The translations under genes were made by a program, and so were the position numbers. Positions 1,875 through 63,399 of a stretch of 64,000 nt of DNA are shown piece by piece (position 1 is the first letter of the stretch; each line of letters opens with the position of its first letter). This stretch comes from Artemia franciscana. Taxonomy: Eukaryota; Arthropoda; Branchiopoda; Anostraca; Artemiidae. The notes below the pieces were generated by a model. The model was not told where the DNA came from and searched no databases. It worked only from the letters and a program-made list of their open reading frames with translations. The stretch covers positions 30,028,716 through 30,092,715 of the forward strand of contig NC_088873.1 of the NCBI RefSeq assembly GCF_032884065.1, written 5' to 3'.

Positions 1875-3200
1875 GAAAGATGGGTTTATTAATATAAATA
1901 ACAAATCAAAACAAGCAAATGGCCCGAAGCAAAGCTTGTTATGGCTTATAACCCCAATACACATACAAATAAAAACAATACGAAAAATAAGAAGAAAATA
2001 AAAAGAAAAGAAAAGGAAAAGAAAAAAGAAAAGAAAAGAAGAAGAAGAAAAAATTCAATTACCCCGCATTTCAATCGGTACGGAATTACACTTCAAAAAA
2101 GACAAAACAAACAGAAACTAAAACCACTTGACCAGTATCGCCTAAAACAAAACCAACATCTTGGCTCCATTTGAGCTTCACTCAATTATCAAAACCATAA
2201 ATATTAAGGCAAAATGGCTTTAATTTCCGTCGAAATTCAGGAAAATTATCCATGTTTCTCAAAGTCGTAGGTAAACAATTCCATGCATGGGGTCCTAGAT
2301 GCCGAATAGAAAATTGAGATCTACGGATAATAGCAAGCGGACGACGAATTATATCGGACTGTCTTGTAGAATGTGTATGAATATCACTTCCTAATTCAAA
2401 CATACTTTTAAAACATATTGGTAAACAATTTTGAAAATATTTATATATAAACAGGCTTCGATAAAAAGTAATAAGTCATGCTAAAGGCAATATTTTGCAA
2501 TCTATATACCTCTTTTGTACCGAGTCTTTAAAACCTACCCCACATAACACTCGAAGCGCTTTATTCTGCAAAACTCGAATATGATAGAGATGAGAAGGAA
2601 ATGTACTACCCAAACATTACAACAACATAGCAGATAAGGATGAATTAAGGAATAATACAGTGTTCTTAAAATATCTCCTGGGAAAATATACTTCAATTTT
2701 CTTAAAATCCCAACATTCCTAGCGAGTTTAAGACTAATATAATCTATATGTTTCCTAAAACTGAGACATTCGTCAATCAAAACTCCTAGATATTTTGTAC
2801 AATTTATTCTTAAAATACTCATTTCAGCAATATTAAGTCTGTCTATCCAAGGGTAATAATTTGAGCACCTACCATGCAATAAAAAGCAAGATTTACTATA
2901 ATTCAAATTTAACTTATTAAGCTTCATCCACTTTTGTACAAACTCCAGACAAGAACTAATACGACTCAACAGCTGAATTCCTGTTTGTGCAGTCACAGTT
3001 ATATGAGTGTCATCCGCAAAGCTGGAAACAATTACTTTTTCCCCATCACATCCAATGTCAAGATCATACGAAATCATATTAAAAGCTCTACATATATCAT
3101 TTATAAAAATTAGAAATAACAAGGGACCAAGAACAGATCCTTGAGGTACTCCAAATTTAACACTACTGACTGAAGAAACATTATCTCCTAGTTGTACATA
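1875..3200 (-). pseudogene. LINE fragment: reverse transcriptase C-terminal half and 3' end
   Basis: Minus strand reads VPQGSVLGPLLFLIFINDIC (RT block 4) at about 3100-3160, then SSFADDTHITVTA (block 5, catalytic FADD; 3002-3040), KYLGVLIDECLSFRKHID and SLIHPYLLCCCNVW. After a break near 2535 it continues into FSIRHLGPHAWNCLPTTLRN and ends at a stop at 2182. An A/G-rich 3' UTR on the plus strand and AATAAA (minus, near 1885) follow. 5'-truncated; the clade resembles CR1/Jockey-type elements, not assigned further. Confidence 0.8.
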
Positions 3201-3446
3201 TTGAGTACAACTAGCATTAATGCATTAATTAGCTTTAATGCTAATTCGCGCATATTCCACGATCCATTGAATTGAAGTTCTATACATCCCTAAGCTATAC
3301 AGATGTTTTCGGCGGTTTTTAATTTATGTTTCCTGCATGTATACTGAAAATAAAGTAAATAAGAAAACATGTATTAAAAATACCAGAGCGAAATCTTTTA
3401 TGTTGTGTATATGGCCTTAACTAAATATACCACAGAATAAGTCATA

Positions 3447-13377: not shown

Positions 13378-16300
13378 GTCTACTACTACTACTACTACTA
13401 CTGCTACTAATACTAACTCACTTCAGAACCAAACCGCCTGAGACCAACAAAGCTACGCACGCTCTTCCCTCATCACAGTCTATTCAAAGCCTCCCTCTTT
13501 ACACCCTCTCAAGAAGTTCATTTCCCTAAAATCTTTCCTACGACATCTTCCCACACCATTTGGAGACGACCTGCTTTAGGTTTGGCCTTGGACGGTTGGT
13601 CAAAAAGGACAATCTTTGGCAATCTGTCATTCTTGATCAGCAGATCGTGGCTTAGCAATCTCTCTCTCACATTATAGTCCCATAAAGCGGAATTGAACCA
13701 CATTTTTGGTACCGCTTTCTGTTTGAGACGCGGTCAGACTTTCGGGTGCTCAAAACAATCCGTAGGCAACTTTTCTGGAAAACATCTAGAAAATCTTCCT
13801 GTTTTTTGGAGCACCTAAGCTTCAGAACCATACTTGACCACTGTCATCATTGTAGCTTCCAATATTTAAGTCTTGGTTTGCAGACTTATCTTCCTATTCT
13901 TAGAAAAATTTGTCAACTGTAAAAAAAACCGGGACCTCTGCTATTCTACTTTTAACATATTCACTGCACTCACTGTCTTTACTAATAATACTACATAAGT
14001 AACTGAAGCTGTCCTATTATTGAATCTGGATCTTTTCATTACCCAACATCACCTCTATCCCTTCACTTATTAATAGTTTTAGCAACTTAGCCTCCTCAAC
14101 ATTAATTTTCAAACCTGTTCTTACACCCTAAACTCGCAAAACCTCTAAAAGTTCATTCGTTTTGCTAATATTTTCATCTAAGATGCCTAAATCATCAATA
14201 TAATCTAAATCTAGGAGACTTTCAGTTACCCGCTTGATTCCGTGCTCTCCCATTGCCTTTGACTCAGTCCATCAAAATGGTCCAAATAAATGGGAATAGA
14301 ATGCAACCCTGCTTAGCTCCTGACTGAATACGAAACCAGCTACCAACATTTCCAGCTACCAACTCCTTTCCTGCCTTAACCACAGCAATATTATTCTCGT
14401 ACATAGCACTGATCACTTTAATGTATCTATCTGGTACACCATACAAGGATAGGAGCTTCCCTTAAGCTCTTCTCTCAGCTGACTCAAATGCTGGCTCATA
14501 ATATATAAAATTGAGGACTAAACGCGTTTGATGACTCAAGCACTTCTGAATTATTAATCTAAGAGTGAAAATTTGGTTGACGCTTCCTCTACCCTTTATA
14601 AAACCACACTGTTCTTTTCTTGAATATTTATCTACAGCATCTCTAAGTCTAAAAAGTATGACAATACTAAGTAATTTACTTCGTACAGAAACCAGGTAAA
14701 CCAATGCCTCTATAATTGTCACAGTCACTCTTATTACCTTTCTTATTAGGGGATTTAATTAGAGTTTTCCTAAAATCGCTAGGTACTTTCCCATTTTCAA
14801 AAATCATATTCATAATCTTCAGTGACTTATCTCTAACTTCACAACTACCATGTTAAAAAAAAAAACTCATTTACCACACAATCAGCATCTCAGACCTTAT
14901 AATTTTGAAACCCTTTTATTACTGTCACTAATTCTTCATCGAGAAATAACTTTTTCTTCGCATCCAAATTAATTTTTTCAATCTTTTATAGATCTTTTCC
15001 GGTAGCTCTATCACGATTTAGCACATTCTCAAAATGTTCTGCCCATCTATGTTTACTCTTTCTATCTCAATTGTGGCCCGCGCCTATCTTTAACTGGGAC
15101 AAGACCAGGACCAGATTAGGACAAATCAATTTTATCCATGGTCTCTTTTTCATACCTCCTTAATTTACACTTTAATGCCTTCTCCACTTTATTTACATTC
15201 CTCTGATGCTCATATGACCTATCACTCAAATAAATCGCTTACAGGCCCCTCCTCCTCTCTATTAAACACAAAGCATTTTCGCTAATTTTTTTAGTTGCGT
15301 TTCTGGCTATCTTCCCCAAGACACAATCAGCGACTTCACAAATTATTATCCCAAAGTTATTCTATTCATCTTCTACATTGTAAAATTTTGAACTCTCCAG
15401 TTTAGTACTGAACTCTTCCTAAAGAGTTTCTCTCAAATTCTCATCCTGGAGTCTATCAACGTCATAACTTCCCAAAAGGTAGATACCCTTCCTAAATTTC
15501 AGCTTTAAATTTACCATATAGACTACTAGATGGTGATCTTTATTTTTAAGACCAAAAACAGCACTCCTATATACCCAAGTATCTTGTATAGATTCTGCCA
15601 GTCTTCGGTTTACAATAATATCATCAATAAAGTTAGCTATCTTAAAATCACGTGAATACAGCGTTAACTCATGGGCTATTTTATGACCAAGCACTGTATT
15701 CGTTATAACTAGATTTTTAAACCCACAAAATTGCAGCAGTCTGAAACCATTACTGTTTTCTTTCCCTACATCAAATTTACTTAGGCTAGGTTACCATCTA
15801 TTTCAATTTCCACCTGCCTGAGCATTAAAACCTCCGAATAAAAATACAATATTTCTAACTATAACCCTGTCTATATGTTCCTGTAGCTGTGAGTAAAATT
15901 CGTCCTGAGTTACTACTTACTCTATCAGTTGGTTCTATATGGGGATATACTACTATGACTGATGTACTAAAATACATACTAAGTAGTAAATGAGGGCATA
16001 TACTAAAATGAGGGACAATCATTCAATAATCAATACCTTCCTAACGTAAATAAGACTTGGTAGCTTCCTTATTCATCATGACCCTAGTCCCTGCTTATGC
16101 ACCCCATCTTTCATGCCTGAGAAAATGTATTATAAATCACCTAACTTCATGTTTCCTACCCCTGGGACGAGTTTTGAAATTTCTAATAAGTCCAGTTCGA
16201 AGCATTTGAATTTGTCAGTCAAAATGTCGATACGATAGGTGTTTTTTAACGTCGTAACATTCCAAGCTGCAAATGTCATATTTTTTAAATCATTGGAATT
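13378..16300 (-). pseudogene. Nearly full-length, decayed (TAG)n-tailed LINE
   Basis: Read on minus: endonuclease start FAAWNVTTLKNTYRIDILTD (near 16280), endonuclease end NRRLAESIQDTWVYRSAVFG and DHHLVVYMVNLKLK (15500-15620), SYDVDRLQDENLRETL, RT fingers EEQCGF-like KEQCGFIKGRGSVNQIFTLR (14560-14640), SGAKQGCILFPFIW, catalytic box LDYIDDLGIL (near 14190), and a C-terminal segment ending at a (TAG)n tail (13381-13402). Order and spacing are those of one ORF2 of about 950 codons. It carries many stops and frameshifts and is dead. The catalytic YADD is YIDD here. Probably an RTE-like LINE; clade tentative. Confidence 0.88.
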
Positions 16301-23429: not shown

Positions 23430-25120
23430 TCAAGAGTTATTTTAACTCAGTATTGGGGACCTCAAACTAGCAATTGTTGTTTGACATTCAACATTTATGT
23501 CAAGGTCACTGCAGCAATGAACAAATTTTATTCTTTGGATCTGTAGCAATAACTTCTAACTCTTTTTCTTTAAAACATATTGCTGCTTTTGAAAATGGAC
23601 AGTTATCAATCTTCTTTTTTTACACTTGAGAAGTTTATATAACAAAAGCTTCAAACAAGCCGACAGAATATCCTACACAAGTTTCAGCTGAGTAGTGGTT
23701 CCCAAGTTTCTGTTTGTCAAAACTTGGAGTTAGATATCCGCCTACTCTTCATTCACAAGTAAATATACTTTCCCTGGGGGAGTTGAATGTTACCATAGAG
23801 ATATCCTTTCGGATCTCAGCATCTTAAATATTTAATGCCAAAAATGCTTACACTGAATCCAAGATGGGAAGAAAAGGAAATTATTTGAAGTAAGTTAGAG
23901 GCTCAAATAAAACAAGATTTCGAGATTAGGGCCAATGTCAAATACTTTGTTTATTTTTAATGATGGAAGGAATTCCACGTTGTATCAATAACTATGATTA
24001 GCGGTGCCTCAAATTTACGAAAATATTAATTGAAAGTGAACCAGTCTCACATAAATAATATTACAATGATAGAGCAACAATTTTATTAAACTATTCAAAA
24101 ATTTCAATAAAATCACAAATCAAAAAGTTTAGTATATTGTATACACAGATTTGTGTGGGAAATAAAAGCCTATCTGCATAACAAATCAACAAGGCCTTTC
24201 TTCCTAAGGAAATTAAGTTGACTAGATAGTCCAATGTCCAACCCAAATGAAAAGAACTAGCTTCTTATTACACTTTTCAAAATAAATATACTAGTACGAG
24301 TTGTACGTACCTCTAAACGCTACCCAAGTCTAAACTTGGGTAGACTCAGTTGAGTCAGTTCTTATTTATAGTAGAAAATAAGACTCAGTTCAAAACACTG
24401 CCTGGGTGTATATGGTTAGTAACATTCTATAATAAATTGACTAGCATATTGATCAGCTGAATAAGGTTTTGTACTAACATTCTTCCAACATTTTTAGTTG
24501 TTATTTCATACTTCATTGTACTGAATGGGTTTGCCCATTTTATTTCCGATGTATTTAGACAACTTTATTATCAACATGCCTGCACACATGGGGGAGCGAA
24601 TGATTTTTTGTTAGAAATGTTTTGGAGGGCCCTCTCCCAGTACCAAAAAAAAACATAACCAAAAAAGGTGGTTTCTTTATATAGGCTATTATATTCCTTT
24701 CAAGGGGAAATTCCGTCAAACTCACCTTCTCCGCAATAACCTACTTCAGCCTACTGTTCTGACACCATTAGTTAACATAATGACCAAAACAAATTGCAAG
24801 TAACAAGAGGAATCAAACACTAATCTAAAATAAAAATGGTTTGAAGCTAAAACACCAAATTGCTCATACGGTTTCTGTTACAATTGAACTGAGTGATCCA
24901 AACAAAAAATATTGCCCTACATTCCCATAATTCAACCCCAAAACAATAATTTTACATTGCGAAGTCGGTTGAATGTCCCAGTCAGTTAATAGTTTGTTGG
25001 GGGGGTTTTAAAGATACTTGGCATATAATCCCCCACTCTCATACTACGCCTTATATCATATCACGGAAATTGAAGTAATACACGGGTAAAAAATAAAGAA
25101 AACGAAATGTTATTTTTTCT
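23430..25120. other. No gene; downstream flank of METTL5
   Basis: AT-rich. Holds a perfect 10-bp hairpin (CTACCCAAGT-CTAA-ACTTGGGTAG, 24320-24343), followed at once by ACTCA-GT-TGAGT. No coding signal. Confidence 0.5.
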
Positions 25121-25125
25121 TTCAG

Positions 25126-25752
25126 TTATTTATTTATTTCAAAACGTATAAAATCAACACAAATATCCACTGAAGTTTTCTTATGAAATTTATACGTGGC
25201 AGGCAAGTCATATCTAAGCTGAGCCAACACAGAAGCATTGTATCCCCATTCTTTGGCCCTAGATACAACATGTTGCCTCGTGGATGTCTTGTGTAGGGAA
25301 TAAACAGCATTATTTGACAACTCAACTGCAACTTTAAGAAACTTCATGTCAATACCAGCATTATTTTTGGTGCCAAATGGTGGGTTCATAACTATGGTAT
25401 CGAACATCCCACGGTAACTATCACTCAATTTTGTCACATCACATTGAATAAAATCCAAATTACTTAATTCATAAGATTCAACGTTAACTGACGCAGTATT
25501 TAAAGCCTCAGAATCAATATCAAATCCAATGACAGCTTCAGCACCAACTAAACTACTACCTATAGAAAGTATACCACATCCACAACCAAAATCTCCAACA
25601 ATATTCCCACTTATGTCGCCAAAGTTATTTTCAATTGTAAATAGCATACAGGCAGCAATATGAGGAGATGTAACGTACTGTTCTAAACCTATTTTTGGAT
25701 TCTCGAATCCTTCCGCATCTTGAAGTGCTGATTCTAATTCTTTGCGCTTCAT
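25126..25752 (-). CDS. METTL5: METTL5, 18S rRNA N6-adenine methyltransferase
   Basis: Intronless 208-codon frame, close to the usual METTL5 length of about 209 aa. In the known family this enzyme, stabilised by TRMT112, methylates one adenosine of 18S rRNA. Visible in the sequence are an N-terminal RKELESALQ helix, the SAM-binding loop DFGCGCG (residues 54-60), acidic GFDID of motif II (76-80), the catalytic NPPFGTKNN (123-131), and the C-terminal block LRYDLPATYKFHKKTSVDI, which closely matches animal METTL5. The start is the first Met of the frame; its ATG overlaps the TGA of the INIP frame upstream (ATGA), with no splice site between them, so both frames lie on one exon. Two overlapping AATAAA hexamers (minus strand, 25129-25138) run through the last codons. 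No motif is missing; it looks functional. Confidence 0.96.
   Translation of the reverse strand: MKRKELESALQDAEGFENPKIGLEQYVTSPHIAACMLFTIENNFGDISGNIVGDFGCGCGILSIGSSLVGAEAVIGFDIDSEALNTASVNVESYELSNLDFIQCDVTKLSDSYRGMFDTIVMNPPFGTKNNAGIDMKFLKVAVELSNNAVYSLHKTSTRQHVVSRAKEWGYNASVLAQLRYDLPATYKFHKKTSVDICVDFIRFEINK
25129..25138 (-). promoter_or_regulatory. Overlapping AATAAA poly(A) signals at the METTL5 stop
   Basis: AATAAATAAATAA on the minus strand: two AATAAA hexamers lie within the final codons and touch the stop codon at 25126-25128. If used, the 3' UTR of the INIP-METTL5 transcript would be only a few tens of bases. No other close AATAAA is obvious downstream. Confidence 0.45.
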
Positions 25753-28279
25753 TTTCCCAAAGGAGCCTCAAATCGTGGCAATACAGGTAAAACTAAATTA
25801 CCAAAGTTAGAATCTTGGGGAACAAAATATCCTAATGATTGACTATTGGCGTGTTGAAGAGCTGATCTCTGAGCAGGAGAGAGTCCTGGTGGTAAATAAT
25901 CGATCCCTCCAGACACCTGCAAAAATAGGTCATAACACTCTATTTAAATATAAAACAAAAGCTCAATCTGCTCAAACACTTATCTCTACACAAATTTCAC
26001 AAAATTCAATCAAAATAAAGACTAATTAAAATACAGAAAAAAATATATAATTTGGAAATTTTAATATTTATATATTTAAATAATTAGACTTTTTTTTTAG
26101 AATTTCCTGAAAATTTAAAAAAAAAGATGCAGAAGTTCGATATCAGGTTAGCAAAGAGATAATTTCATATTCTAAGTGAGTCCAACATTAAATGCTCCTT
26201 GCAAGGTTAATTGTCAGTCCTAGGAAAGTTTTTTTAAGCTAGTTGAAGACTAAAGAGGCTAAAAAAATTTTATCTGAAATAATTAACCAGATTTTCTGCA
26301 AATAGTGATATCATTTCATCTACAGACATTTCATCTATCATTTCTTATCTACAGACCACTAATCATAAGACAGGCTAAAGAAAAAAAAAATCTACAAAAG
26401 CACTAGAATTGCCCTGCAATATAATTAAGTGGGGTGAGAGTAAATAACCTTGAAATCGAGGAGGGTCAAAAGTTTTCATTATGAATTTGCTGAAAAGATC
26501 AAAAAGAGGAAATCAAGACGTTAGATTCCCATTTATAAAGATCTACCCTTATACGAAAATTCAAAAACAGGGCTCGTAAAACCACAATTCATCTTGTATT
26601 CTTAATGTTTGTTTTTTTTTATAAATCATGGTTTTAGTAAACAAATAACAAGAATAAATTATATACTCGTCCTTTTCCAATTTGGAGAAATATTAGACTA
26701 GAAGTCAAATTCTTGCATAAGCAAGAAAGAAAAGCACACCAATCTAAAGTTAATATTTATTTACTTTTTCTACAACTAGAATACTTCAGCACAACACATA
26801 AAAGTACTAGCAAAAAAGTGGGGTAGCCTCGTATTTTACTAAGATTTTAAAATTTTATATAACAAAAAGGAATATTAATAAAAATCAGAGAAGACAAGAA
26901 AATGCAGCTAATCAGCATGAATTTCACCTGCCAAATTTTCAAACGTAAATGAAAGGTTTTTCTTTATTTATGTTTGTCTAAATTGGCAGGTTTACACATT
27001 ATATGTTATTAATCAAAGGGTTTCAACTGACTATAAATAAATATTAGGTCTTAGTTCATTCATTAGTAAATAATATTTTATGAGTAATATTTTCTAAGGA
27101 GAAGACATTCTAATTAAATATTCTAATAAATTTAACATTCCCAATCCGTACAAAACACTACCATGTTGATTTTCAGGAAGGGATGGCGGGGATGAGCCTC
27201 AGGCCAAGTTTCCAAATTAGATTGGAATCTTTAGGGCAGCCCGCATTTCTTGGATAGATCCATTGTCAGAAGCTCAATGGGATACCTGAGACACCAACTT
27301 ACAGCAAAAAGATTCTAAAGTTAGTTCCTTGTGGCACTAGCTTCGTAATTTTGTCACTGTTTTTATTTCTACCTTTGGTAATATTTTATGCTATGGATTA
27401 TTTTTAAGAAATTCTGCAACTGAAATGGAAACTACGCATCCGTACTAAAATTTTGCATTTAAAAATTTTAGTACTCATTTAAGGATAATAAATACTAAAC
27501 ACTTTTTATGCAAATACTAATAAATATTATTCAAAATTAATTTAAAAGAATATAGGTTTTGAATTTAACTGTTATTTTGTCAGTTGTTTTCTACAACACA
27601 GGATTTTATATATTGGGATAAAATAAAAAATAATGTTAATAATTGTTCATTTATCCTGACCCGAAAAATCAAAGGAGAAAAGCTCTATGATTACCTGCAG
27701 CTGAGTGTTTGACCCAATAGTAGGGGGTATAGCACTTGATATTGGTAACACACCTTGCTTCAGGAGTTTCTTCTGAGCCTTTAGCTCTTCAAGTACTTTG
27801 TGGGCAGGGGATTCTAGAAAGAAAAATAAATAAATAGTTCTTTGTACCATTAACCATGTGCTAAGTAGTTTGATATAATAAGAAAAAGTCCAGAAAGCTT
27901 TCATCCTTTAACAAAGCAAAAATGACAACCTTGCCCATAGGGGCAGCAATCGGACTTTTATTCCAGGTAGTTCTTCTTCTTTTTAAGTTTTGATTTATTT
28001 GTCAAAATAATTTCCTTTTGTTTCGTTTATCAGACCAGATTAATTTCTGTTTGTTTTCAGGGGTACCTGACTGTTCATTTTAGTTGCTGTTGGTTTTAGG
28101 TTTTTCAAGATACCAGTTTGCTTAAGCATCATAGCCATTGCGCAGACATCTAAGACGTTCAAAAAAAAAATTATGATTGGTTAAGGATAAGATAAAAATT
28201 TCTTCAGCCATAGGGCAACTTAATGCTACTTACTTGTGCTCACAATAGGACTGGACAATTCTGCCTCGTCTGGGTACAT
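25749..28279 (-). CDS. INIP: INIP / SOSS complex subunit C, three exons
   Basis: Coding exons are 28234-28279 (starting MYPDEAELSS), 27695-27813 and 25749-25916. SOSS-C is a small partner of the single-strand DNA-binding SOSS complex (with SOSS-B and INTS3) in double-strand break repair. The last exon carries the family signature QRSALQHANSQSLGYF, QDSNFGN and ILPVLPR-like VLPVLPR; the middle exon has the helical KVLEELKAQKKLLKQ that matches the N-terminal helix of animal INIP. Splice signals are strong: donors ACAA|GTAAGT and CTGCAG|GTAATC, acceptors TTTCTAG and TTTTTGCAG. Phases agree (1/1, then 0/0). Predicted length is 110 aa against about 104 in human. The start Met is the only one in exon 1. 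Its TGA (25749-25751) shares ATGA with the METTL5 start. An upstream 5'-UTR exon is possible but not seen. Confidence 0.93.
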
Positions 28280-28289
28280 CTGAACAAAT

Positions 28290-29460
28290 CCTTTAAGTGA
28301 GCTAGCTCCATCTACTAAAGTATCTCAAAGACTTAGACAAGGAATTGGAGGAATTATCATGTTGATTTAACTAGGATGTCTAATAAGTGCATCTCCTAAA
28401 TAATTACAGAACACTTTCCAGGATTTTTGTTTTGTTTTGTTCTATCGGACCCAACTATCCCTCACATACTATCCAAAGTTGTTGCTGTGTGTTGATAACT
28501 TCAAAAGCAACTAGAGAATGGTTTTTAACCATCCCTGCCTTGTGGTCACTATTACTGGGTGGTCTTAGATTGCATCTCTCCAGCACTCTAAGAAATTAGA
28601 ATGGTCCTGGGCCTATCTCTACTACTCACCTATTTGTAGGGATAAAAGACTGCTTAGAAGACATACATAGGCAACCTACACTGACTTTGGTAAAATAAGT
28701 CTTTCTCTTAATTTTGATTTGTATCTAGTTCGCTTTGATTAAAGATTTTGAAAACACAATTTTGATGATTCGAGTATGATTTTAGGCCATACTGAAATGT
28801 TTTCAAATTTAACATGTAACTCTAAAACCCTAGAAGTCATAATCTAGCAACAGGATAAAGCTCAGAACACTTCCCTTGGATATTGTTGTTTTTCGGGAAA
28901 TTTCACAATATATGACACAGTTAGTTACAATTTGTCAGATGCGATTGCCTTTTAGGGGGAGGGAAGAAGTGAACAGGCAATAAATACTCGCAGTACACCT
29001 TCCCAGGTCCTAATTTTGACTCTGGATCCGTTCCAAAAGCTGCAAACACCCAGCTTGTCATTTTCCTATGTTTGGGACTATGGACTTTCTAGTTTATACA
29101 ATTCTGCCCTCTTCTTATTTCCACTAGTCTTGTTTCAGTGAAGTACGGCTTGCTGTTTACCAACACCACAAGATAAGATAATATAGCAATTGTTGCTGGC
29201 ATGCTTACTTACCACTGGCAATACCCAACTGACATGATATATACTCCCAGAATACTTAGTATTTCTTAGCATTTCTTAGTGAACCACACGTTTTTCAGCT
29301 GGTTGAGCAGGATCCAATAAGTGGTTCACCAACGACATCTACTTAGAGTTTCAATTAAAATTAGATGATATTACTTCAACAGCAGTTGTAAAGTTTAAAG
29401 ATCTTTATTACAAGCATTTTGCGGCGATATATACTAATTGAATTTTAGGAGATTAAAATT
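28290..29460. other. Upstream flank of INIP, no gene seen
   Basis: Expected to contain the INIP promoter; no TATA box or initiator that I would defend. Confidence 0.4.
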
Positions 29461-29644: not shown

Positions 29645-31290
29645 AATTGCCGATTTCACCTTTACCCACAGTAAAGTTAATGGGAAGTTTTTTCATTCTC
29701 CCATTAAGTTTCATCCCGATCTCTCCACTTTAAGCGTTTTCCAAGATTTCCGGTTTCCCCCTCCAACTCCCCCAATGTCACTGGATCTGGTCAAGATTTA
29801 AAATGAGAGTTCTAAAGCACAAGATCCTTCCAAATACCAAATTTCTTTAAAATCTGATCACCCGTTGGTAAGTTACAAATACCTCGTTTTTTATAATTTT
29901 TCCGAATTCCCCCCCCCAACTCCACCAAAGAGAGCATATACGGTCCGGTTATGTCAGTCACTTATTTTGGACTTGTGTTTATCCTTCCCACCAAGTTTCA
30001 TCCTGATCTCTCTGCTTTCAGCGTTTTCCAAGATTTCCAGTCCCTCCCCCCCCCAATGACACTGGATCCGGTGTCGGGATTCAAAATAAGAGATCTAAGT
30101 TACAAGGTCCTTCTAAATATGATATTTCATACAGATCCGATCATTTCTTCGTAAGTTAAAAATACCAAATTTTTTAATGTTTTAGAATTAATCCCCCCCC
30201 CAACTCCCTCAAAGACAGCAGATCCATTTCTCTTATGCCAATTACGTATCTAGGACTTGTGCTTATTTTGCCAACCTAGTTGCATCCAAATCCCTTCACT
30301 CTAAGCGTTTTCCATATTTTAGGTCCCCCCAACTCCCCCCAGGGTCACCAGATGAGGTCGGGATTTAAAATAAGAGCTCGAAGACATGATTTCCTTCGAA
30401 ACATCAAATTACATTAAGATCCAATTACTCCTTCGTAAGTTAAAAATACCCCATTTTTCTGATTTTTCAGAATTAACCCTCCCCCCTACTCCCCCAAAGA
30501 GAGCGGATCCGTTCCGGTTATGTCAATCATGTATCTAGGACTTGTGATTATTTTTCCCACCAAGTTTCATCCTGATCTCTCGGCTCTAAGCGTTTACCAA
30601 GATTTTAGGCTCCCCCCCCCCAACTCCCCCCGATGTCACCAGATACGGTCAGAATTTAAAATAAGAGCAGTGAGACACGATATCCTTCGAAACATTAAAT
30701 TTCAATAAGATCCAATGACTCCTTCATAAGTTAAAAATACCTCATGTTTTCTAATTTTTCAGAATTAACCCTCCCCCCAACTCCCCCTAAGAGAGCAGAT
30801 CCGTTCCGGTTGTGCCAACCATGTATCTAGGACTTGTTCTTGTTTTTCCCACCAAGTTTCATCCTGGTCCCTCCACTTTAAGCATTTTCCTAAAGTTTAG
30901 GTTTCCCCACCCCAACTCCCCCCTATGTCACCTGATCCGGTCGGGATTTAAAATAAGAGCTCTGAGATACAATAGCCTTCCCACGAATCAAATTTCATTA
31001 AGATCCAATCACCAGTTCGTAAGTTAAAAAAACCTCCTTTTTTCTAATTTTTCCGATTTACCCCCCCCCCCCAGTTCGTCAAATCGGAGAAACGACAATT
31101 TCTAATTTAATATGGTCTGGTTCCTGATACGCCCGCCAAATTTCATCGTCCTACCTTACCTGGAAGTGCCTAAAGTAGCAAAACCAGGACAGACAGACTG
31201 ACGGACCAACAGACAGACCAACAGACGGACAGAATTTGCAATTGCTATATGTCACTTGGTTAATACCAAGCACCATAAAAACGCATTTTG
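29645..31290 (+). repeat. Satellite-bearing element, five ~285-292 bp units plus terminal module
   Basis: Units repeat the blocks AAGTTTCATCCTGATCTC, a C-rich CCAACTCCCCC tract, GGATTTAAAATAAGAGC and AAGTTAAAAATACC. The array ends in a (GACA)n-like stretch (near 31187-31235), then a hairpin CACTTGGT-TAAT-ACCAAG. The same element in reverse lies at 53.6-55.4 kb. No coding frame is conserved. The central tandem array with a terminal hairpin recalls Helentron/DINE-type elements, but the ends do not prove it. Confidence 0.8.
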
Positions 31291-35219: not shown

Positions 35220-35870
35220 ACTGTGTGCTGGCATAAGCTTGGATGAGTATTAGTAATAGAAATACCAATCCATCAAAGAGAATCTACATCAGGGATAGTG
35301 AAGCCACTACAAAAAAGAGGAGTACTTGAAGTTTTATTAAAAGAAAGAAATTTGCATTTATCAAGACTAAGAGAAATTCTTATATCCAAAAAAGAAGTAG
35401 CAACACAAGAAACCAAGTTAGATAGACAGGTTATAGTATGACTCATAAAAAGCAGGTCATCAACATAGGCAAAATATGAAACATCAGAAAAAGTAGAGAG
35501 GTAAGTAGCCAATATCTTTGTGGGAACTCCTGAAACACATAATTTGAATAGGGTCAGAGATAAAACTCCACCTTGCCTTATCTCTTTTCACTTTAATAAT
35601 AGTAGCTGGCACTGATTTCAGCTGAAGAAAAGAATTAGGGTACCAGTAACAAAGAAGCATTATAACCAATAGATTAACACCACAACCATGAAGACCAGAA
35701 AAAAGCTAACTATGACATACTCCATCAAAAGCTTTGGTTAGATCAAAATCACAAACATAGATACTCTTTCCCTTAGAATCATTTTCAAGGAACAAAGATA
35801 AATGATACACAATGCTCATGCTAACAACCTACTCTGGGCTGAAATTCAAATCACTCCAATCACTTTGAAT
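35220..35870 (-). pseudogene. LINE reverse transcriptase fragment
   Basis: Minus-strand reading gives DFDLTKAFDGVCHS (the RT block 3 aspartate region), then a second frame with SYFAYVDDLLFMSH, where YVDD is the catalytic box, followed by SLSLDKCKFLSFN. At least one in-frame stop and one frameshift separate the blocks. The clade is unclear, but it differs from the 13.4 kb LINE. Confidence 0.75.
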
Positions 35871-46370: not shown

Positions 46371-49300
46371 TTAATCATCTATTGACACTATAGATTCTTG
46401 AGAAACGGGTCTAAATTGCTTGCTTCTAGGTCCTCCTAAGTAGCTGATAGGGTTAGTGAATGTGCGACAATCATCGCTGAGATAAATCGGATGCAGACCA
46501 ACACTAGTCAAAGGCATGGAATGCTGTCGTTTGAAAGGCTTTGGAATTATAATAGGTACATCAATATGTTTCTCATTATCTAAAGTTTTTTCTGCCCCTG
46601 AAAAACGAAATTCAATGAAATTATACCATTTACAATATACATCAATTTGTTAACATAATTACTTATCATTGTGTTAGCACTAATCAAATATTATAAATTT
46701 CAGAAATATCTCATTAAAAAAAGGGAGGACATTCTATTAAGAAGCATCTAGAAAATCGGTTTTTGAATCAAGAAGGCTAAAGCTAATTAGGGGATTTAGA
46801 TTTATCTCCTGTTTCGGTTTTCCCAGTGAATTTTTCGAATAGACTTTGCTTGACTTCTCAATTCTGGGTCTGGAGTCTCAAGTCAAAATCAACACCTTAT
46901 TTTTTTCTTTGTATGAGGTAATCAGGCTGCATCAATTGAAGCACCTTGAAATTTTGACATAAAGGTTTAAATGGTTCATTTAGTAAAAACTGTAACTTGG
47001 ACGGTTTTGCGTAAAGCTCTAAACTTTGTCTCATTTTTCAAGAAGATGAAACCCTTAGTTACAGTAAGATTTACAAGGTCATAGGCTACACCTTAACGAA
47101 AAGGAGCTGATAAATCTTGAGATCCTTAAGAAATTTTTTACTTAATTTAAAAAGATGAAATTAAAGTTTAAGGTACAAGTCAACTTACAAAAGATCGAAG
47201 TTCTTTTGTTCAGCTAAACTTTGAGTTTTCTCTTAGACTTTCAAAATTTAATTGCAACGCTTCTTCTCACCATAAATTAAAACTAAAAACGTTTTCAATT
47301 TCTTTAGTAAAAAAAAAAGTCTAACCTATGTGAAGTGCCCATCAGCATTATCTTATAAACCAAATGTCCCCACATTAATTCCTAGCTGTAGTTCTTATAA
47401 TTATTAACGGAACAACTGTAAAAAAAAGTTCAGACATTCTACCCTCAAAGAAGGTAAACGAAGAAGTGACGGGACCTATCGTCTTCCATGTTCAATACTT
47501 TCTTGTTTCTCCTTTAGAATTTAATTTTTTTTTATCATGTCCTTTTTCTAAGTTTAGACTTTTTTTATTTTGACTTAAAACCCAACCCTGGTTCGGTTGT
47601 AGCTTATGATAGCAGTTTTTGGTAAAGTACCCTCAATCAAACAGTTCGTGGTAACGAACTGTAGTAAGGAGCGACCCGGCTCAATAGTAACCAAAACTCT
47701 AAAAAATGGAATTTTGGTACCAATAGCTACATCAAAAGAATCGCATTTTAATGCTGATTTTAAGTATATAAGTTTCATCAAGTTTAGTCTTACCCATCAA
47801 AAGTTATGAGCCTGAGAAAATTTGCGCTATTTCAGAAAATAGGGGGCAACACCCTCTAAAAGTAATAGAATCTTAATGAAAATCACACCATCAGATTCAG
47901 CGTATCAGAAAACCCTACTGTAGAAGTTTCAAGCTCCTATCTACAAAAATGTGGAATTTTGTATTTTTTGCCAGAAGGCAGATCACGGATGCGTGTTTAT
48001 TTGTTTTTTGTTTTTTTTTTCCCCAGGGGGGATCGTATCAACCCAGTTGTCCTAGAATGTTGCGAGAGGGCTCATTCTAACGGAAATGAAAAGTTCTAGT
48101 GCCCTTTTTAAGTGACCAAAAAAATTGGAGGGCACCTAGGCCCCCTCCCACGCTAATTATTTTCCCGAAGTCAACGGATCAAAATTCTGAGATAGCCATT
48201 TTATTCAACGTAGTCAAAAAACCTTATAACTATGTCTTGGGGGACGACTTACTCCCCCACAGTCCCCGTGGGAGGGGTTACAATTTCAAAACTTTGACCA
48301 GTGCTTACATATAGTAATGGTTATTGGGAAGTGTACAGGCGTTTTCAGGAGGATTTTTTGGTTGGAGGCAGGGGTTGAGAAGAGGGGGATATGCTGGGGG
48401 AGCTTTCCATTGAAGAATTTGTCATGGGGGAAGAAAATTTCAATGAAGGGAGCGCAGGATTTACTAGCATTACTTAAAAAAAAAAATGAAAAAATAAATA
48501 TGAAAAAGTTTTTTTTCAGCTGGAAGTAAGCAGCAGCATTAAAACTTAAAACGAACAGAAATTATTACCCATATGAGGGGCTCACCTCCTCCTAATACCT
48601 CGCTCTTTACGCTAAAGTATTTTTAGTAATTTCAACTATTTATTCTGCGGCTTTTGTGATTCAGGGGTCATTCTTAATGAATTGGGACAAAATTTAAGCT
48701 TTAGTGTAAAGAGCGAGGTACTGACGAGGGGGCGAACCCCCTCATATATGTAATAAAAACATGAGAATATAAAAGTTCTTTACGAAGGCTAATTTATAAC
48801 TTACGTATATCTTTTACTTACAAAAAGATTCGTAGAAATTAAAAGTTCTAGTTGCCTTTTTAATTAACCGAAAATCGGAGGGCAACTAGGGTTCCTCCCC
48901 CGCTCTTTTTTTCTCAAAATCATTCGATCAAAGCTATGAGAAAGCCATTTAGCCAAAAGAAAATAAATAGACAAATTTAGTATTAATTATTCCTCTGCGG
49001 AGAGCCAAAACCAAAACATGCATTGATTCAAAAACGTTCAGAAATTAAATAAAAAAAACAAGTCCCTTTTATATACGGAGTAATTTCTGTTCGTTTTAAG
49101 TTTTAATGTCGCTCCTTACTTTCATTTAAAAAAACTTGTTTTTCTTTATTTAATCTAGTTACAGGGGAGCGATGTATAAAGGTGGCGAAAATCTAGGAAA
49201 TAAAATTTTGGGACAAAGACTACCTAATTAAGTTAAATGAATTCTTTCGTTTAATTAAGAGTGTGCAAGATCAGTAAACAATAGTACCTCCAATTTGCAA

Positions 49301-52300
49301 CAAGAATTATGATAGCTTGTCTATTGAGTAGCTATCATAATTGTGTGTGCACAACTATCAAAAACTGTGCAAAAATGAGCCACAACTAAATGATTGGGTT
49401 GTTAATTTAAATGGGCCGTAAGACCAGAATATTTGAATATATGATGGGATAACATACCCTAGGCAAACAGCCTCAATCTATTCTATGCTTTATATGAAAC
49501 CACAAGCTTAAAAGATGTTTTTATTTATCTATTTATCAAGATATTTTTATTTCAAGGTGTTTTTACTACTTTTTTCTGCCACTGAATAGATTAATGCAAA
49601 TCCAAGAGGATAAAAATGAGGAGTGCCCTCGAGAATATGTGTTCATGGCATCCAATTCATATGCTCAACAGACCTATTAAAAAAATTATATATGTGTTTA
49701 GAAATAACATCAACGAAGAAAAAAAGGGATCAAAACAAAAGATTAAAAGCAGGTTAAAGCAAAAGCACAAATTTCAGCATTCTGCACAAAATCAAATCTA
49801 CACAAACAAAAATACGATATAAGGGCCACTAACAAGACCATATTAAGTAATGAGCCAGTGTGAACCAGTGATGACTAATTCCCCTTACTTAGAGGCTTTA
49901 ACATACAGGACTTTTTTTCCTAAAGAGTCATATAGAAAAGCAAGAACTGGCTCTAGCTTGATTAGTGACTCATTATGGCTACACAAAAAGAAGATATTGT
50001 CTCTTTGGGGAAGATAAATATTTACCAAAGAACAAAGAATTTACAATAAAAGAAACTTGACTCTCTCACATAACATTTCCCAACTATACACAAAAGCATA
50101 ATAACCAACCCGGCAACAATTAATATTAGTAAAATATAGAAGACCTTTGTTCAACAGAGCTTCATATTCAAAGTGGCTTTTGGTTATGTCAGATTTGTCG
50201 TCCTCTTCTCCAAAAAATGGAAGGAGATCTAAACCAATCTCTTCACCAGCATTAAATTCTACCTATACATAATTTACGGAGCTTTAGACCAAAAAAATGA
50301 CCAAAAAAATGTGACCAAATCGCACTGTAAAAAATTCAAACGAATTTCAATTAATTCAAGAATCATGCAGTAATGCTTCCCAGAGGTAATTTGATACTGT
50401 AACAAGCTTTTACTTATTATGATTAATTACTGTGCAATATATACATCGTGCATCAACATGTAGTAGAGTACAGTGGCACCTTAGTTATCCTTTAGCTATA
50501 TTTCACTTATTCTTGCCAAAGGAGCACGTCGCAAGGAATGTTTCTTATCCAATGGTTTTATTGGCTGCAGCTCAGGGTACGGGTTTAGGTCGTAGTCAAT
50601 TACTTTCTGGTGCCAAAAGCTTGGTTCGATTGTCGACTCTTCGTCAATCAGATCAACAATTTTATCCTAGATAAAATTATACTTCCTTCATGAGATGTGC
50701 GCAAATTCATGGACTATTAAATTAAATATTCAACTCTTTGCATTTACATATGTCAGGAATTATATTTTTTTTTCAAAAATCCAATCTCTAAGTTCTAATA
50801 ACTAAAAAAAAGAACACTGTTTTATTTTTACATCTTATCTTAAACATCCAGTAAAGCAGTTAAAATAATCTTTAACATTTTGAATTTTCTACAGAATCTT
50901 TGTTTCGTACCCCAGTGAATTTTTGTAATGACAGTTAATGTGAAAAATCCATTTTAATTCTTGAGACATTATCCAAATTCTAAGGAATTCACTATTCTAT
51001 AGATTCATTGTTTCAAACAATTAACAAAGTTCTTAAGAATTTCCGATTGGAAGATAGTTAAGCTGTATGATTTTAATTTGATGACAAGTTTAACCAAAAT
51101 CAGTCTAATAGTAACCCATTACGGGCATCTCAGACTTTTAGTTTACAAAGGGATTTTTTTTAATACCCCTCGACACGTTTTACCTGCTGCTCAGGACATA
51201 CTCGGTACTCGGTAGGTAGCTAATCGGTACTAGGATCGGTACTAGGATCGTAGGGAAGGTACTAGCATTGGTAAGCTTGCACCTTCGGTACTCGTTGTCG
51301 TGACGTTAGCTACTCCATATTTTTTGCATGAATTTATATATGTCTGTACTTTTTACCTCTACACATTGTCATGGTTTCAAAATTGGTCTTCATAAAAGTA
51401 CACGTTTCTATCTTGATTGATCTAGCCTACTTTTCAGCGTAGCTATACACACACTTGATTATCTAGGCAGGCCTATAGAATACTTTTAATTGTGCATTTC
51501 AGTATGGACGACTCACTGAAACATATCCTGATATAGAATTTGTGAAATTGGAATTTAAGAGATTATTTATTTTTCAACAGTCAAAATAAATAATTCAACT
51601 TTTGGAATTAGAACTTATCTCTAGAAAATTATTCTATGCACGAACGAACCTGAGAGTCAATTGATTGCTTTCACTCAAAATATTAAAAATTTCAAAAGTG
51701 GACTTAAGTGTGTTTCATGTCAGAGAAGCTCTTGCAACCTACTGGCTACTGGATTTTTTACGATGAGAAAAAACATTACCTTTAAAAGTAAAAATTAAAC
51801 CCAATACTAAACCCACATAAGAGAAACAGACAGGTCAAATATTGCTAAGAAAAAAATACGTTTCTAAATAGTTACTGCAGCTCACTATTTCTAAAAAAGT
51901 GACAGTACAGTAGCAGTAATTTAAGATAGTGTGCGAAGCCACTCCAGTCGGTGCAAGTTTCATAGGCAGGATTGAAAACAAACCTCGACGGCGTGCTCCA
52001 TAAGGTCTTCAGCTATATTTTCATTTGATTCTGCATCCTTAAGAACATCTATATCGGCTGTGTCGTCAGTATATCCAGAGGAAAGATTATCTTTTGTTGA
52101 AGATAAAGATGCATCCTCTCCTTCAGGTTCTTGACGAGCTGAAATTGAATTTAAAAGAGCGGACCGAAATAAAGTGAAGAACAAATAAGGATGACAGTTC
52201 AAATATGGGATGCACACATTAACTTAACCCGAGAACTGATTTGCTTTAATTAATGCCTTTTCTGAAATACGGAAATCATTCCTCTAAAATTGGACGGATC

Positions 52301-55300
52301 AAGTTCAACACTAGTAAAGTAAGTTTCATCTCTCGACGAAAGCGATCTTCTTCAGATTTTTCTATCAATTTATTAGAGTGCAGAAGAGATTTCTAGTCTC
52401 CAGGATATTGCTTCTGGAAATAATTACACTTCTCTGTTAAATTGAAGCCTCTTTTATACAATTTTCCCGATTTGACTTGCTTTTTAGTTAGAATAAATAC
52501 CATCGAAATCAAATGCGTTATTAAAAAGCAAATTCAATAGTTCTTGTATATCTGGCCTTTAAAAAGCTACATCAAACAAAATAATTGCAAGCTTTTTAAA
52601 TAGGATGCTTTAATTTAATGTACAAGCAAAATGGCAACATGACAACATTAGTAAAGTATTATTATGTTAGCTACGCACAGATTAGCATCAAGACTCAGCA
52701 TCAAAAACTTACAAAATTACAGCAAGCGTTTGTAACACGATTCCCAAAATTTTCCCCTTTGTTTCTATTCTTTTCATCTTGGGTTAACTTATTCTCTTTG
52801 CTTCTGTTCTAATTTCTAGGATTAAATTTCTTGGATTAAATTGCTCAAAATATTTCGATAAATAAAAGTGAAATCTAGACATTTAAGGTTGTTCTAATCC
52901 AAGATATCAAGTTAAAACATCAAAATATAAGAATACCCTTACGCAGAATGTAGCTGACACTCCTAACAATGGATACAATTAGGCTCACTTCCACAGGATC
53001 TAACTCATATCCCAATAGGGAGGGAAGGAAGGGTTCTGTCGACCTGCTGGTGAAAAGATGATTTCTCAAATAACCAGCTTGATTTTAAAAATATTTAAAT
53101 TTAATAAGCTATTTTTGGTGGGAAAGGAGATATGAATACAAAAATTCCTGTCTGCTACGAAAAAACCTATAAATCCTTATTCTGGTGGCCTTTTGTTACG
53201 TACCTTGCTCCACGGCTTTAATTTCTGGGGTTCCTGTATGAGTTAAAGAAATAAACTCCTTTCCTGCAGTCCCATTTATTCTTGCCAAATTGGTATAGTC
53301 GACACTAGAGATATTTTTGTTAATATATTCATCGAAGGAATTTGTCCTGTTTTTCTCCAGCTCAAGCTTAGGATGGGTGGTAACACCGGCGTCCTAAATA
53401 AGAGGTATTAAAATAATAGAAGAGAAAATTTCGAAGGAAAGAGTTTTAATAATATACGGCAAAGCATGCTATAAAAGCAGGCATTAGTATTATCTGAAGT
53501 TTTGGGTTTTTGTAGACACAAATAATTTTGAAAATATATAGAAAATATTATTGGGAAGATTCGCGTGGACGTTGTTTAGTTAAAACGAATTGTTTTCATT
53601 TGTGGCTTGTTTATTCTAGTTTTTAACATAATCTCTCTTTTTATGGCACTTGGTATTAACCAAGTGACATATAGTAATCGCAAATTCTGTCTGTCTATCG
53701 GTCCCGGTTTTGCTACTTTAGGCACTTCCAGGTAAGCTAGGACAATGAAATTTGGCAGGCATATCAGGGACCCGACCAGACTAAATTAGAAATAGTCGTT
53801 TTCTCGATTTGACAGTCTAGGGGGGATTGGGGGGACCGTTAATTTGGAAAAAATAGAAAAAATGAAATATTTTTAACTTACGAACGGTTGATCAGATCTA
53901 AATGAAGTTTGATGTTTGGAAGGATATCGTGTCTCAGAGCTGTTATTTTAAATCCCGACCGGATCTGGTAACATTGGGTGGGGGGGGGGAGCTGGGAAAA
54001 CAAATCTTGGAAAACACTTAGAGTGGAGGGATCGGGATGAAACTTGGTGGGAAAAATAAGCAAAAGTCCAAGATACATGATTGACATAACCAGAACGGAT
54101 CTGCTCTCTTTGGGGTAGTTTGGGGTGGGGGGTTAATTCTGAAATATTAGAAAAAATGAGGCATTTTTAACTTACGAACGGGTGATCGTATCTCAATGAA
54201 ATTTGATATTTAGAAGGGTATCGTGTCTCTAAGCTCTTATTTTAAATCCCGACCGGATCCGGTAACATTGGGGGGATTTTTTTGGGGGGGACCTAAAATC
54301 GTGGAAAACGCTTAAATCGGAGGGATCGGGATGAAACTTGGTAGGAAAAATAAGCAGGAAGTCTTAGATACGTGATTTACACAATTGGAACGGATCCGCT
54401 CTATTGGGGGGGGGGGGTTAATTCTGAAAAATTAGAAAAAATGACGTATTTTTAACTTACGGAGGAGTGATTGGATCTTCATCAAACCTCATATTTAGAA
54501 GAACCTCGTAACTCAGATCTCTTATTTTGAATCTCAACCGGATCCAGCGTCATTGGGGAGGGGCAGTTGGGAGGGACCGGAAATCTTAGAAAATACTTAA
54601 AGCAGAGAGATCAGGATGAAACTGGATGGGAAGAACAAAAACCTATCTAAGATGCGTGACTGAAATAACCGGACCGGCTCTGCTCTTTTTGGTGGAGTTG
54701 GGGGGGGGGAGGATAATTTGGAAAAATGAGGTATTTATAGCTTACGAAAGGGTGACCAGATCTTAATGAAATTTGATATTTAGAAGGATCTTAAGGTTTA
54801 AAGCTCTAATTTTAAATTCCAACCAGATCCTGTGACATTGGGGGGAGTTGGAGGGGGAAACCGGAATTCTTGGAAAACGTGAAAATTGGGGTATTTTTAT
54901 CTTACGAATAGGTGATCGGATCTTAATAAAATTTTATATTTAGAAGGAATTCATGTCTCAGAGCTCTTATTTCAAATCTCGATCAGATCTTTTGACACTG
55001 GGGGGAGTTGGAGGGGGAAATCTTGGAAAACACTTGGAGTGGAGGAATTGGGATGAAGCTTGGTGGATAGAATAAGCAAATGTCCTTGATACGTGATTTA
55101 CGTAACAGTAACGGATTCGCTCTCTTTGGGGGAGTTGGGAGGAGGGGTTCAGTGATTTGGCGAGTTTGGTGCTTCTGGACGTGCTAGGACGATGAAAATT
55201 GGTAGGCGTGTCAGGGAGCTGCACAAATTGACTTGATAAAGTCGTTTTCCCAGATTCGACCATCTGGGGGGCTAAAGGGAGAGGAAAAATTAGAAAAAAT

Positions 55301-61140: not shown

Positions 61141-63399
61141 ACTTTATACTCTTATATAGGGTACTCAGCTTCTTAACGGCATCTTTGATGACAAACTTAT
61201 CATCCTCCCAAAAGACAGTGATTACTCCTTCGTTCATAATTCTTGGTCCGTTTCAAACATTGACCACATGGCCTGCTCTAAGAATATTAACGGAAGTGTA
61301 ACTGTTCTAAAAGACGGTGTTTTCGCTGATCACTTACCCCTGCTAGCATCTCTAAGCATAAAACCAGCTCTGCGTCAACCCAAGAACGACAAGTGGAAAG
61401 TAGTAAGTGAATGGGATAAAATTAATACTACTTTGTATCATCAGGTGCTGAACTCACTTCACATCCCGTGGATGCAAGAGTACTCATCAATATATTTTGT
61501 GCCGAGATTACTCACTCGCTTCTCGTAGCTGAAAAAAAGCAGTTCCTACCAGAAAGGTTAAAATGAAAACAGAAATTCACAAATTCTCGCAAAATCCGGC
61601 CCTAGTTAAGTGTTGCAACGATGCTAAGTTTTGGTTTAGAATCTGACAAGATTGTGATAGGCCCAAATCCGGTCCTGTTAACTCTATCCGTTTATGGACT
61701 AAACGAAAATTTGACAAGCAACTGAAAGCTCATCGTACCAAATTAAAAGAAGAGTACTCCTCCAGAATAGGGTCCGTAAGTGACCCAAAACTAATCTGGA
61801 AAGCCCGGTTGAGCGAGCGAACCGGTCATCGGAAAACCCCATGATTCGATTAGCGAAAAAGATTGGGAATCGTACTTTTCCAACGAATTCAGTGCCCCCG
61901 ACCCAAATACGTCTAATCCCTTCGTAGACCGGCTAGAATCGGTACTATCCAGCCAGTGTGTCCCTGATTTTGTCGTTATTTACGGAAACGTACAAAAGCT
62001 ATTTTAAAGCTGAAGAAGCTTTAAAATAGCTGAAGAAGCTATTTAAAATATTCCAGATTATTTTCACCACTGGTATAGTGCCTGACTCTTTTTGTGTCGG
62101 TTTGCTCTCGCTCATCCTTAAAAAAGGGAAATCAACAGACCAATGCTCTTTGTACAGGCCAATCACTGTTGCTCCAGTGCTCTGTAAAGATCTAGAGATC
62201 TTAGTCTCAAAAGAAATTCAATATTCGCGCCGAATGCCTGACCACCAGTTCGGTTTCCGACCGTGTCTGGGTTGTGCTTACGCTCTCTTCAGTCTTGCCG
62301 CTATTCTTGCAGATTCTCACGAATCTGGTGACCCTATAGTGATTGGTGCTTTTGATGTGAGTAGAGCGCTTGATTCGTCGATTCACGCTCAGGCCCTTTT
62401 AGCCGCTTACCAGCAAGGTGTAAACCTCTGTGTCACTAGCGTACTGTACGATATGTATTGCCGTTTAAAAGCGCGTATAAAAATAGGTAACCGCATCACA
62501 TCAGTGGTTGTTCCAGTAAAGAAAGGTGTCCGCCAGGGTTCATTATTATCAACAAGTTTGTATAATAACAGTGTTTTAAATGCCCAGGCATTCGTAAATG
62601 TTTCATGTATCTCCAAGAATATAAATGTGTCGCTGCTTACATACGCGGACGATCTATTAAATCTAAGTCGGTCTATTAGGGGTCTGCAATCGAATTTCTC
62701 GATTCTGCGTGATGAATACCGAAAAATCTGCCTGGCTTTCAATACTTCTAAATCTGCAGTTCTTTTTTTCAACGATAGTCCTTCTCAGCCTGAACACCTC
62801 CTACTGGGTAGCGAGTCAATTACCGTTTCATCTCACGTCGTGTATCTGGGTTTACCCATAGGCCGTAACCTTAATGAAACTCGTCTACTGCTCGTCAAAC
62901 ACGTCGAGAAAAAACTCCGCACCGCGTATGGGTCTATCGTCGCCAGCAGACTCCTCTTATGCCGAAAGTATCTCGCGAATATGTATAACGCTGTCGCACT
63001 GCCGCATATTCTATATATCGTGCCATTTTGGAATTTATTAACTGACACCCAAAAACGCAAGCTCCGGTCCCTTTATTTTAGGTTCCCGAAGTTCCTGCTG
63101 CGATGCCCCTTGTGGACGAGAAATACTTATATGATTGACAAACACAGGATTGCAGACCCCAGTATCGCGGTAAACCGGTTGATTTCTAAATTCCAGGCAA
63201 AATGGAACCACCCCTGGCTTAAACATTTCTACAGTACTTGATTATATATTTTTCCATGTTGTGTTTTAAATTTCTCTCCGTTTTTCTTGTCTTTTTTTTT
63301 CTTTTATTTTTTTTCATTGTACTCCATTTTGTTCCATGTGAAAAATACGGGTAATAAATATTTTACTTACTTACTTACTAAATCTTTCGATTTCCAATC

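Follow-up and report, generated by a model that had tools for sequence, protein, structure and literature searches.

A candidate bicistronic INIP–METTL5 gene pair joined by an ATGA stop/start overlap in Artemia franciscana

The INIP and METTL5 genes and their surroundings

Within the window, that is, the whole 64,000-nucleotide stretch of Artemia franciscana DNA analyzed here (contig NC_088873.1), the genes INIP and METTL5 were found to abut on the minus strand (Table 1). The TGA of INIP and the ATG of METTL5 have two bases in common, and the two genes are read in different frames. The first-pass annotation had delimited the last INIP exon and the two-base overlap, and its coordinates were exact to the base. 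It had also stated that no splice site lies between the two genes, and neither an intron nor a spacer was found to separate the ORFs.

Table 1. Coordinates of the features of the INIP–METTL5 locus (positions within the window)
Feature	Position	Strand	Basis
INIP exon 1 (ATG to donor; 15 codons + 1 base)	28234-28279	-	predicted from ATG, donor GTAAGT and phase
INIP intron 1, 420 nt	27814-28233	-	GTAAGT...TTTCTAG
INIP exon 2	27695-27813	-	splice sites and phase; the Pfam match of the spliced protein begins in this exon
INIP intron 2, 1778 nt	25917-27694	-	GTAATC...TTTTTGCAG
INIP exon 3, coding part, with TGA (25749-25751) at its end	25749-25916	-	
ATGA overlap: METTL5 ATG (25750-25752) and INIP TGA (25749-25751)	25749-25752	-	
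METTL5 ORF, 208 aa + stop, single exon, intronless	25126-25752	-	ORF; match to 6h2u_A
Two overlapping poly(A) signals (AATAAATAAA) in the last METTL5 codons	25129-25138	-	first AATAAA/ATTAAA past the exon-3 acceptor

The spliced INIP frame encodes 110 amino acids (333 nt with the stop codon), and both of its introns are of the GT...AG type, with donors CAA/GTAAGT and CAG/GTAATC and acceptors TTTCTTTCTAG/AA and CCTATTTTTGCAG/GT. The spliced protein was identified as SOSS-C, subunit C of the SOSS complex, by its match to the Pfam family SOSSC (E = 7.3e-18; 66.3 bits against a cut-off of 27), in which residues 23–104 align with positions 2–101 of the 101-position profile. Most of this score comes from exon 3, which on its own gave 60.7 of the 66.3 bits (E = 3.9e-16). 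Exon 2 on its own had no Pfam match at E <= 10 and adds approximately 5.6 bits, and exon 1 lies outside both the Pfam match and the match to the human SOSS-C chain 4owt_C, the latter covering residues 67–105 only (E = 1.2e-10). Homology makes the identity of the C-terminal half of INIP certain; since exon 2 adds so little to the score and exon 1 is unmatched, these two exons are drawn mainly from the ATG, the splice sites and the phase, and coding is predicted to begin in exon 1. Neither a TATA nor an initiator pattern of simple form was seen in the 120 nt upstream of the INIP ATG, which says little.

METTL5, together with TRMT112, methylates 18S rRNA (m6A). Residues 2–206 of the protein encoded here align with residues 5–209 of human METTL5 (6h2u_A; E = 6.2e-83), and the aligned segment NPPFGTKNN contains the NPPF motif, which we take to be the catalytic motif of METTL5. 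By homology the identity of the protein is certain, and its enzyme activity is predicted. The first-pass annotation had noted that both proteins look complete and conserved; METTL5 matches 6h2u over its full length, and INIP matches nearly the whole SOSSC profile. In the METTL5 frame, TGA is the sixth codon 5' of the ATG, and the ATG of the overlap is therefore the only possible AUG start of METTL5 within exon 3.

Two simple accounts of the overlap were considered and rejected. A fused INIP–METTL5 protein produced by read-through is ruled out, as the INIP frame continues for only four codons past its TGA before a further stop and, in addition, by the TGA that precedes the METTL5 ATG in the METTL5 frame. 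A plain pseudogene was likewise rejected, given that both frames are intact and conserved.

Relatives of the two genes were also looked for in collections of genome and viral contigs. For METTL5, 52 pattern matches were obtained in the genome contigs, none of which was confirmed, and three in the viral contigs, where two distant loci were confirmed over residues 96–133 only. For INIP, none of 35 pattern matches in the viral contigs was confirmed, and a degenerate INIP pattern gave no matches in the viral or the genome contigs (one in the window, as a control). As the collections searched are viral or prokaryotic, the missing relatives of METTL5 and INIP say nothing about animals. A literature search of open-licence papers for INIP together with METTL5 returned no title or abstract start about this pair, and the analysis yielded no evidence that would speak for or against a functional tie between the two proteins.

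The surroundings of the pair were scanned against Pfam in all six frames over 10.0–25.0 kb and 28.3–43.3 kb and in the three minus-strand frames over 43.3–58.3 kb, using unspliced frames, from which genes with small exons can escape. At E <= 0.001, two reverse-transcriptase pieces and no other family were found. These are RVT_1 matches near 35.3–35.6 kb (E = 3.3e-9) and at 14.3–14.7 kb (E = 7.3e-6, below Pfam's cut-off). Gene crowding is not obviously the cause of the abutment of INIP and METTL5, with only these reverse-transcriptase pieces named nearby. Judged by eye, reverse-transcriptase-like ORFs of LINE type are present at 62030–63241 on the plus strand and at 2535–3224, 14255–14758 and 35273–35593 on the minus strand. 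Tandem arrays occur at 29699–31071, 53838–54623 and 54721–55020, with units of 292, 294 and 160 bases, respectively; by eye, a sequence similar to AGCTCTTATTTTAAATCCC recurs among these units in one orientation or the other, pointing to dispersed repeats that are related. Two minus-strand ORFs (46371–46649 and 51960–52223) look by eye like real coding exons, possibly of an upstream gene, and gave no Pfam family at E <= 1. Searches for tRNAs and against Rfam gave no matches.

A probable shared transcript for INIP and METTL5

The first-pass annotation had placed INIP and METTL5 on one transcript, and this claim is strengthened by the anatomy of the locus, both by the direct abutment of the ORFs and by the distribution of poly(A) signals. 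The only AATAAA signals of exon 3 begin at 25138 and 25134, close ahead of the METTL5 stop codon, and ATTAAA is absent; neither signal occurs between the acceptor and the last codons of METTL5. A message which contains the end of INIP would therefore probably include METTL5 as well. With only 0.56 AATAAA and 0.65 ATTAAA expected by chance in exon 3, the lack of signals before the end of METTL5 is statistically weak. A variant signal, TATAAA, is present at 25194 within METTL5, and intron 2 of INIP holds three AATAAA and one ATTAAA, which could terminate a message inside INIP. It is likely that INIP and METTL5 are co-transcribed, and the anatomy points to a single mature mRNA that would carry both frames.

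Start codons and the route to METTL5 translation

No ATG in any frame was observed in the 326 nt between the INIP and METTL5 starts, against 4.8 expected from dinucleotide frequencies, an outcome reached in 0.15% of 20,000 dinucleotide shuffles (P = 0.0015). Of all 326-nt stretches, 0.3% on the minus strand and 1.3% on the plus strand are likewise ATG-free, which lessens the weight of this depletion. The depletion is independent of the call of exon 1, as exons 2 and 3 alone have no ATG in 285 nt, where approximately four would be expected. METTL5 itself contains 15 internal ATGs against 13.95 expected, with a longest ATG gap of 107 nt. When the INIP protein was held fixed, three schemes of synonymous re-coding left 13, 25, and 33% of the sequences without an out-of-frame ATG (P 0.13–0.33); the depletion thus stems largely from INIP being short and Met-free and need not be selected. 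Given the INIP protein, the ATG-free reading is only mildly unusual.

The start context of INIP (TTCAG-ATG-T) is weak and that of METTL5 (GGGAAA-ATG-A) is strong, as graded by eye against the Drosophila contexts given in PMC9681215, from which the consensus of this animal may differ. Upstream of the INIP start, genomic ATGs occur at -32, -81, -113 and further away, and these could disturb scanning if transcribed. The nearest of them, at 28311, opens a short minus-strand frame (28240–28311) with its TGA at 28240–28242 within INIP exon 1; were this frame transcribed, ribosomes terminating there would meet the ATG of METTL5 next.

The first-pass annotation had left the choice between reinitiation, leaky scanning and a promoter in the intron undecided. 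The weak and strong start contexts, together with the ATG-free INIP frame, favor leaky scanning rather than reinitiation behind an ORF of 110 codons. Of the routes by which METTL5 could be started, leaky scanning has the most support. One capped mRNA of three exons, ending just past METTL5, would carry both frames. Scanning ribosomes that accept the weakly placed AUG of INIP would produce INIP, and those which pass it would find no further AUG before the strongly placed AUG of METTL5 and would then produce METTL5. We hold with modest confidence that INIP–METTL5 is one bicistronic unit of this kind.

It is also possible, though in our judgment distinctly less probable, that METTL5 is made from a message of its own. 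Such a message could arise from a promoter in intron 2 whose first exon is joined to the exon-3 acceptor by splicing, or from a spliced leader joined to this acceptor or to a site inside exon 3, so that the INIP coding sequence of exon 3 would serve as the leader of METTL5. In no frame of exon 3 does an ATG precede that of METTL5, and any message with a leader or first exon joined to exon 3 would therefore translate METTL5 normally. Acceptor-like AGs are present inside exon 3, the best of which follows 12 pyrimidines in 15 positions and would begin a new exon near 25869. Trans-splicing of spliced leaders has been reported for copepods in the accessible part of PMC4664967. In Drosophila, according to the text available from PMC4528330, only 45 of 159 dicistronic pairs appear to be exclusively dicistronic and many dicistronic loci also give a monocistronic message; most dicistronic pairs are held there not to satisfy the needs of a scanning mechanism. 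The same source gives a stop-to-start distance of -34 to 319 nt for loci with polycistronic transcripts only, a range into which the two-base overlap of INIP–METTL5 fits. Against a separate METTL5 message stands the expectation that INIP messages would still tend to continue through METTL5, with no AATAAA or ATTAAA to end them earlier.

Coupled termination-reinitiation, in which ribosomes ending INIP at the ATGA would stay on the message and restart at the overlapping AUG, ranks third, after leaky scanning and a separate METTL5 message, and we consider it quite unlikely. An upstream ORF of 110 codons is long for reinitiation in animals. The length of INIP, an argument which comes in part from the available portion of PMC11892635, counts against a restart, although the ATGA has the geometry of termination-reinitiation systems. 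Caliciviruses and influenza B use reinitiation at overlapping stop and start codons, and human overlapping ORFs have been tested for it, as described in the part of PMC3923131 that was accessible. In that text, coupling in CASQ2 was driven by multiple Asp residues, whereas INIP ends in RFEAPLGK, which is not Asp-rich and, unlike NT5C2 and TMEM97, not rich in Glu and Lys either. A depletion of AUGs close to the stop would suit reinitiation too (PMC11892635, in the text available), but reinitiation has no need of the depletion found far upstream.

That the two genes are not a working pair at all, METTL5 being here a retrocopy or silent while another METTL5 gene serves the cell, is very improbable: METTL5 is intronless with AATAAA at its end and is followed directly by an A-rich stretch (12 of 15 A, which is not rare, being reached in 5.3% of 5000 random 71-nt stretches), but its frame is intact across 208 codons and strongly conserved, and no flanking direct repeats of at least 8 bases were found between 25745–25850 and 24980–25131, where the longest was 7.

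Comparison with known bicistronic loci

The leaky scanning proposed for INIP–METTL5 has a close likeness in sloth1/sloth2 of Drosophila, as described in the available text of PMC9681215. There, two conserved ORFs in different frames almost touch, the first with a non-optimal start (ACACATG) and the second with an optimal one (CAAAATG, compared with GAAAATG for METTL5), and leaky scanning is backed by reporters. The sloth ORFs are separated by 5 nt and are likely paralogs, whereas INIP and METTL5 have 2 nt in common and their proteins are unrelated; the sloth1/sloth2 transcript has been seen, whereas that of INIP–METTL5 is predicted. Like INIP, the first ORFs of stoned and Snapin in Drosophila are poor in internal AUGs and have a diverged start context, and their downstream ORFs reportedly depend on leaky scanning (PMC11892635 and PMC3372440, in the parts accessible). 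These are other genes, in which the mechanism was tested, whereas for INIP–METTL5 it is deduced.

The bicistrons of green algae described in the available text of PMC11892635 have first ORFs with median lengths of 357 and 291 nt, a weak start context and a depletion of AUGs before the second ORF; in reporters, output of the second ORF changed inversely with alterations to the context of the first. INIP resembles them as a short, weakly started first ORF depleted of AUGs. The algal loci belong to an unrelated lineage and have median inter-ORF gaps of 183 and 40 nt, in contrast to the overlap seen here. In lemming (lmgA/lmgB), a dicistronic locus of Drosophila, the first ORF encodes a small subunit of a conserved complex, as does INIP. 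According to the accessible part of PMC3372440, lmgA has three further in-frame AUGs, whereas INIP has no internal AUG, and the LmgB protein was undetected in S2 cells. Set beside lemming, sloth1/sloth2 and the green algal loci, INIP–METTL5 falls on the permissive side.

INIP–METTL5 would add a member to the known but rare class of animal bicistronic messages. Every further pair of well-conserved, unrelated proteins is a test of how animals read a second frame. The layout is a clean one, and the lack of an internal AUG and the opposite start contexts would allow the mechanism to be decided by a single dual reporter. A more far-reaching version is in our view unlikely, namely that the pair forms an obligate bicistron specific to the lineage and that METTL5, perhaps an intronless retrocopy, has lost its promoter and depends wholly on leakage past INIP. 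If true, the level of an rRNA methyltransferase would be set by the stringency of start-codon selection and by the expression of a DNA-repair subunit, and if the two frames are carried exclusively as a pair, the dose of the rRNA methyltransferase would be tied to start-codon stringency.
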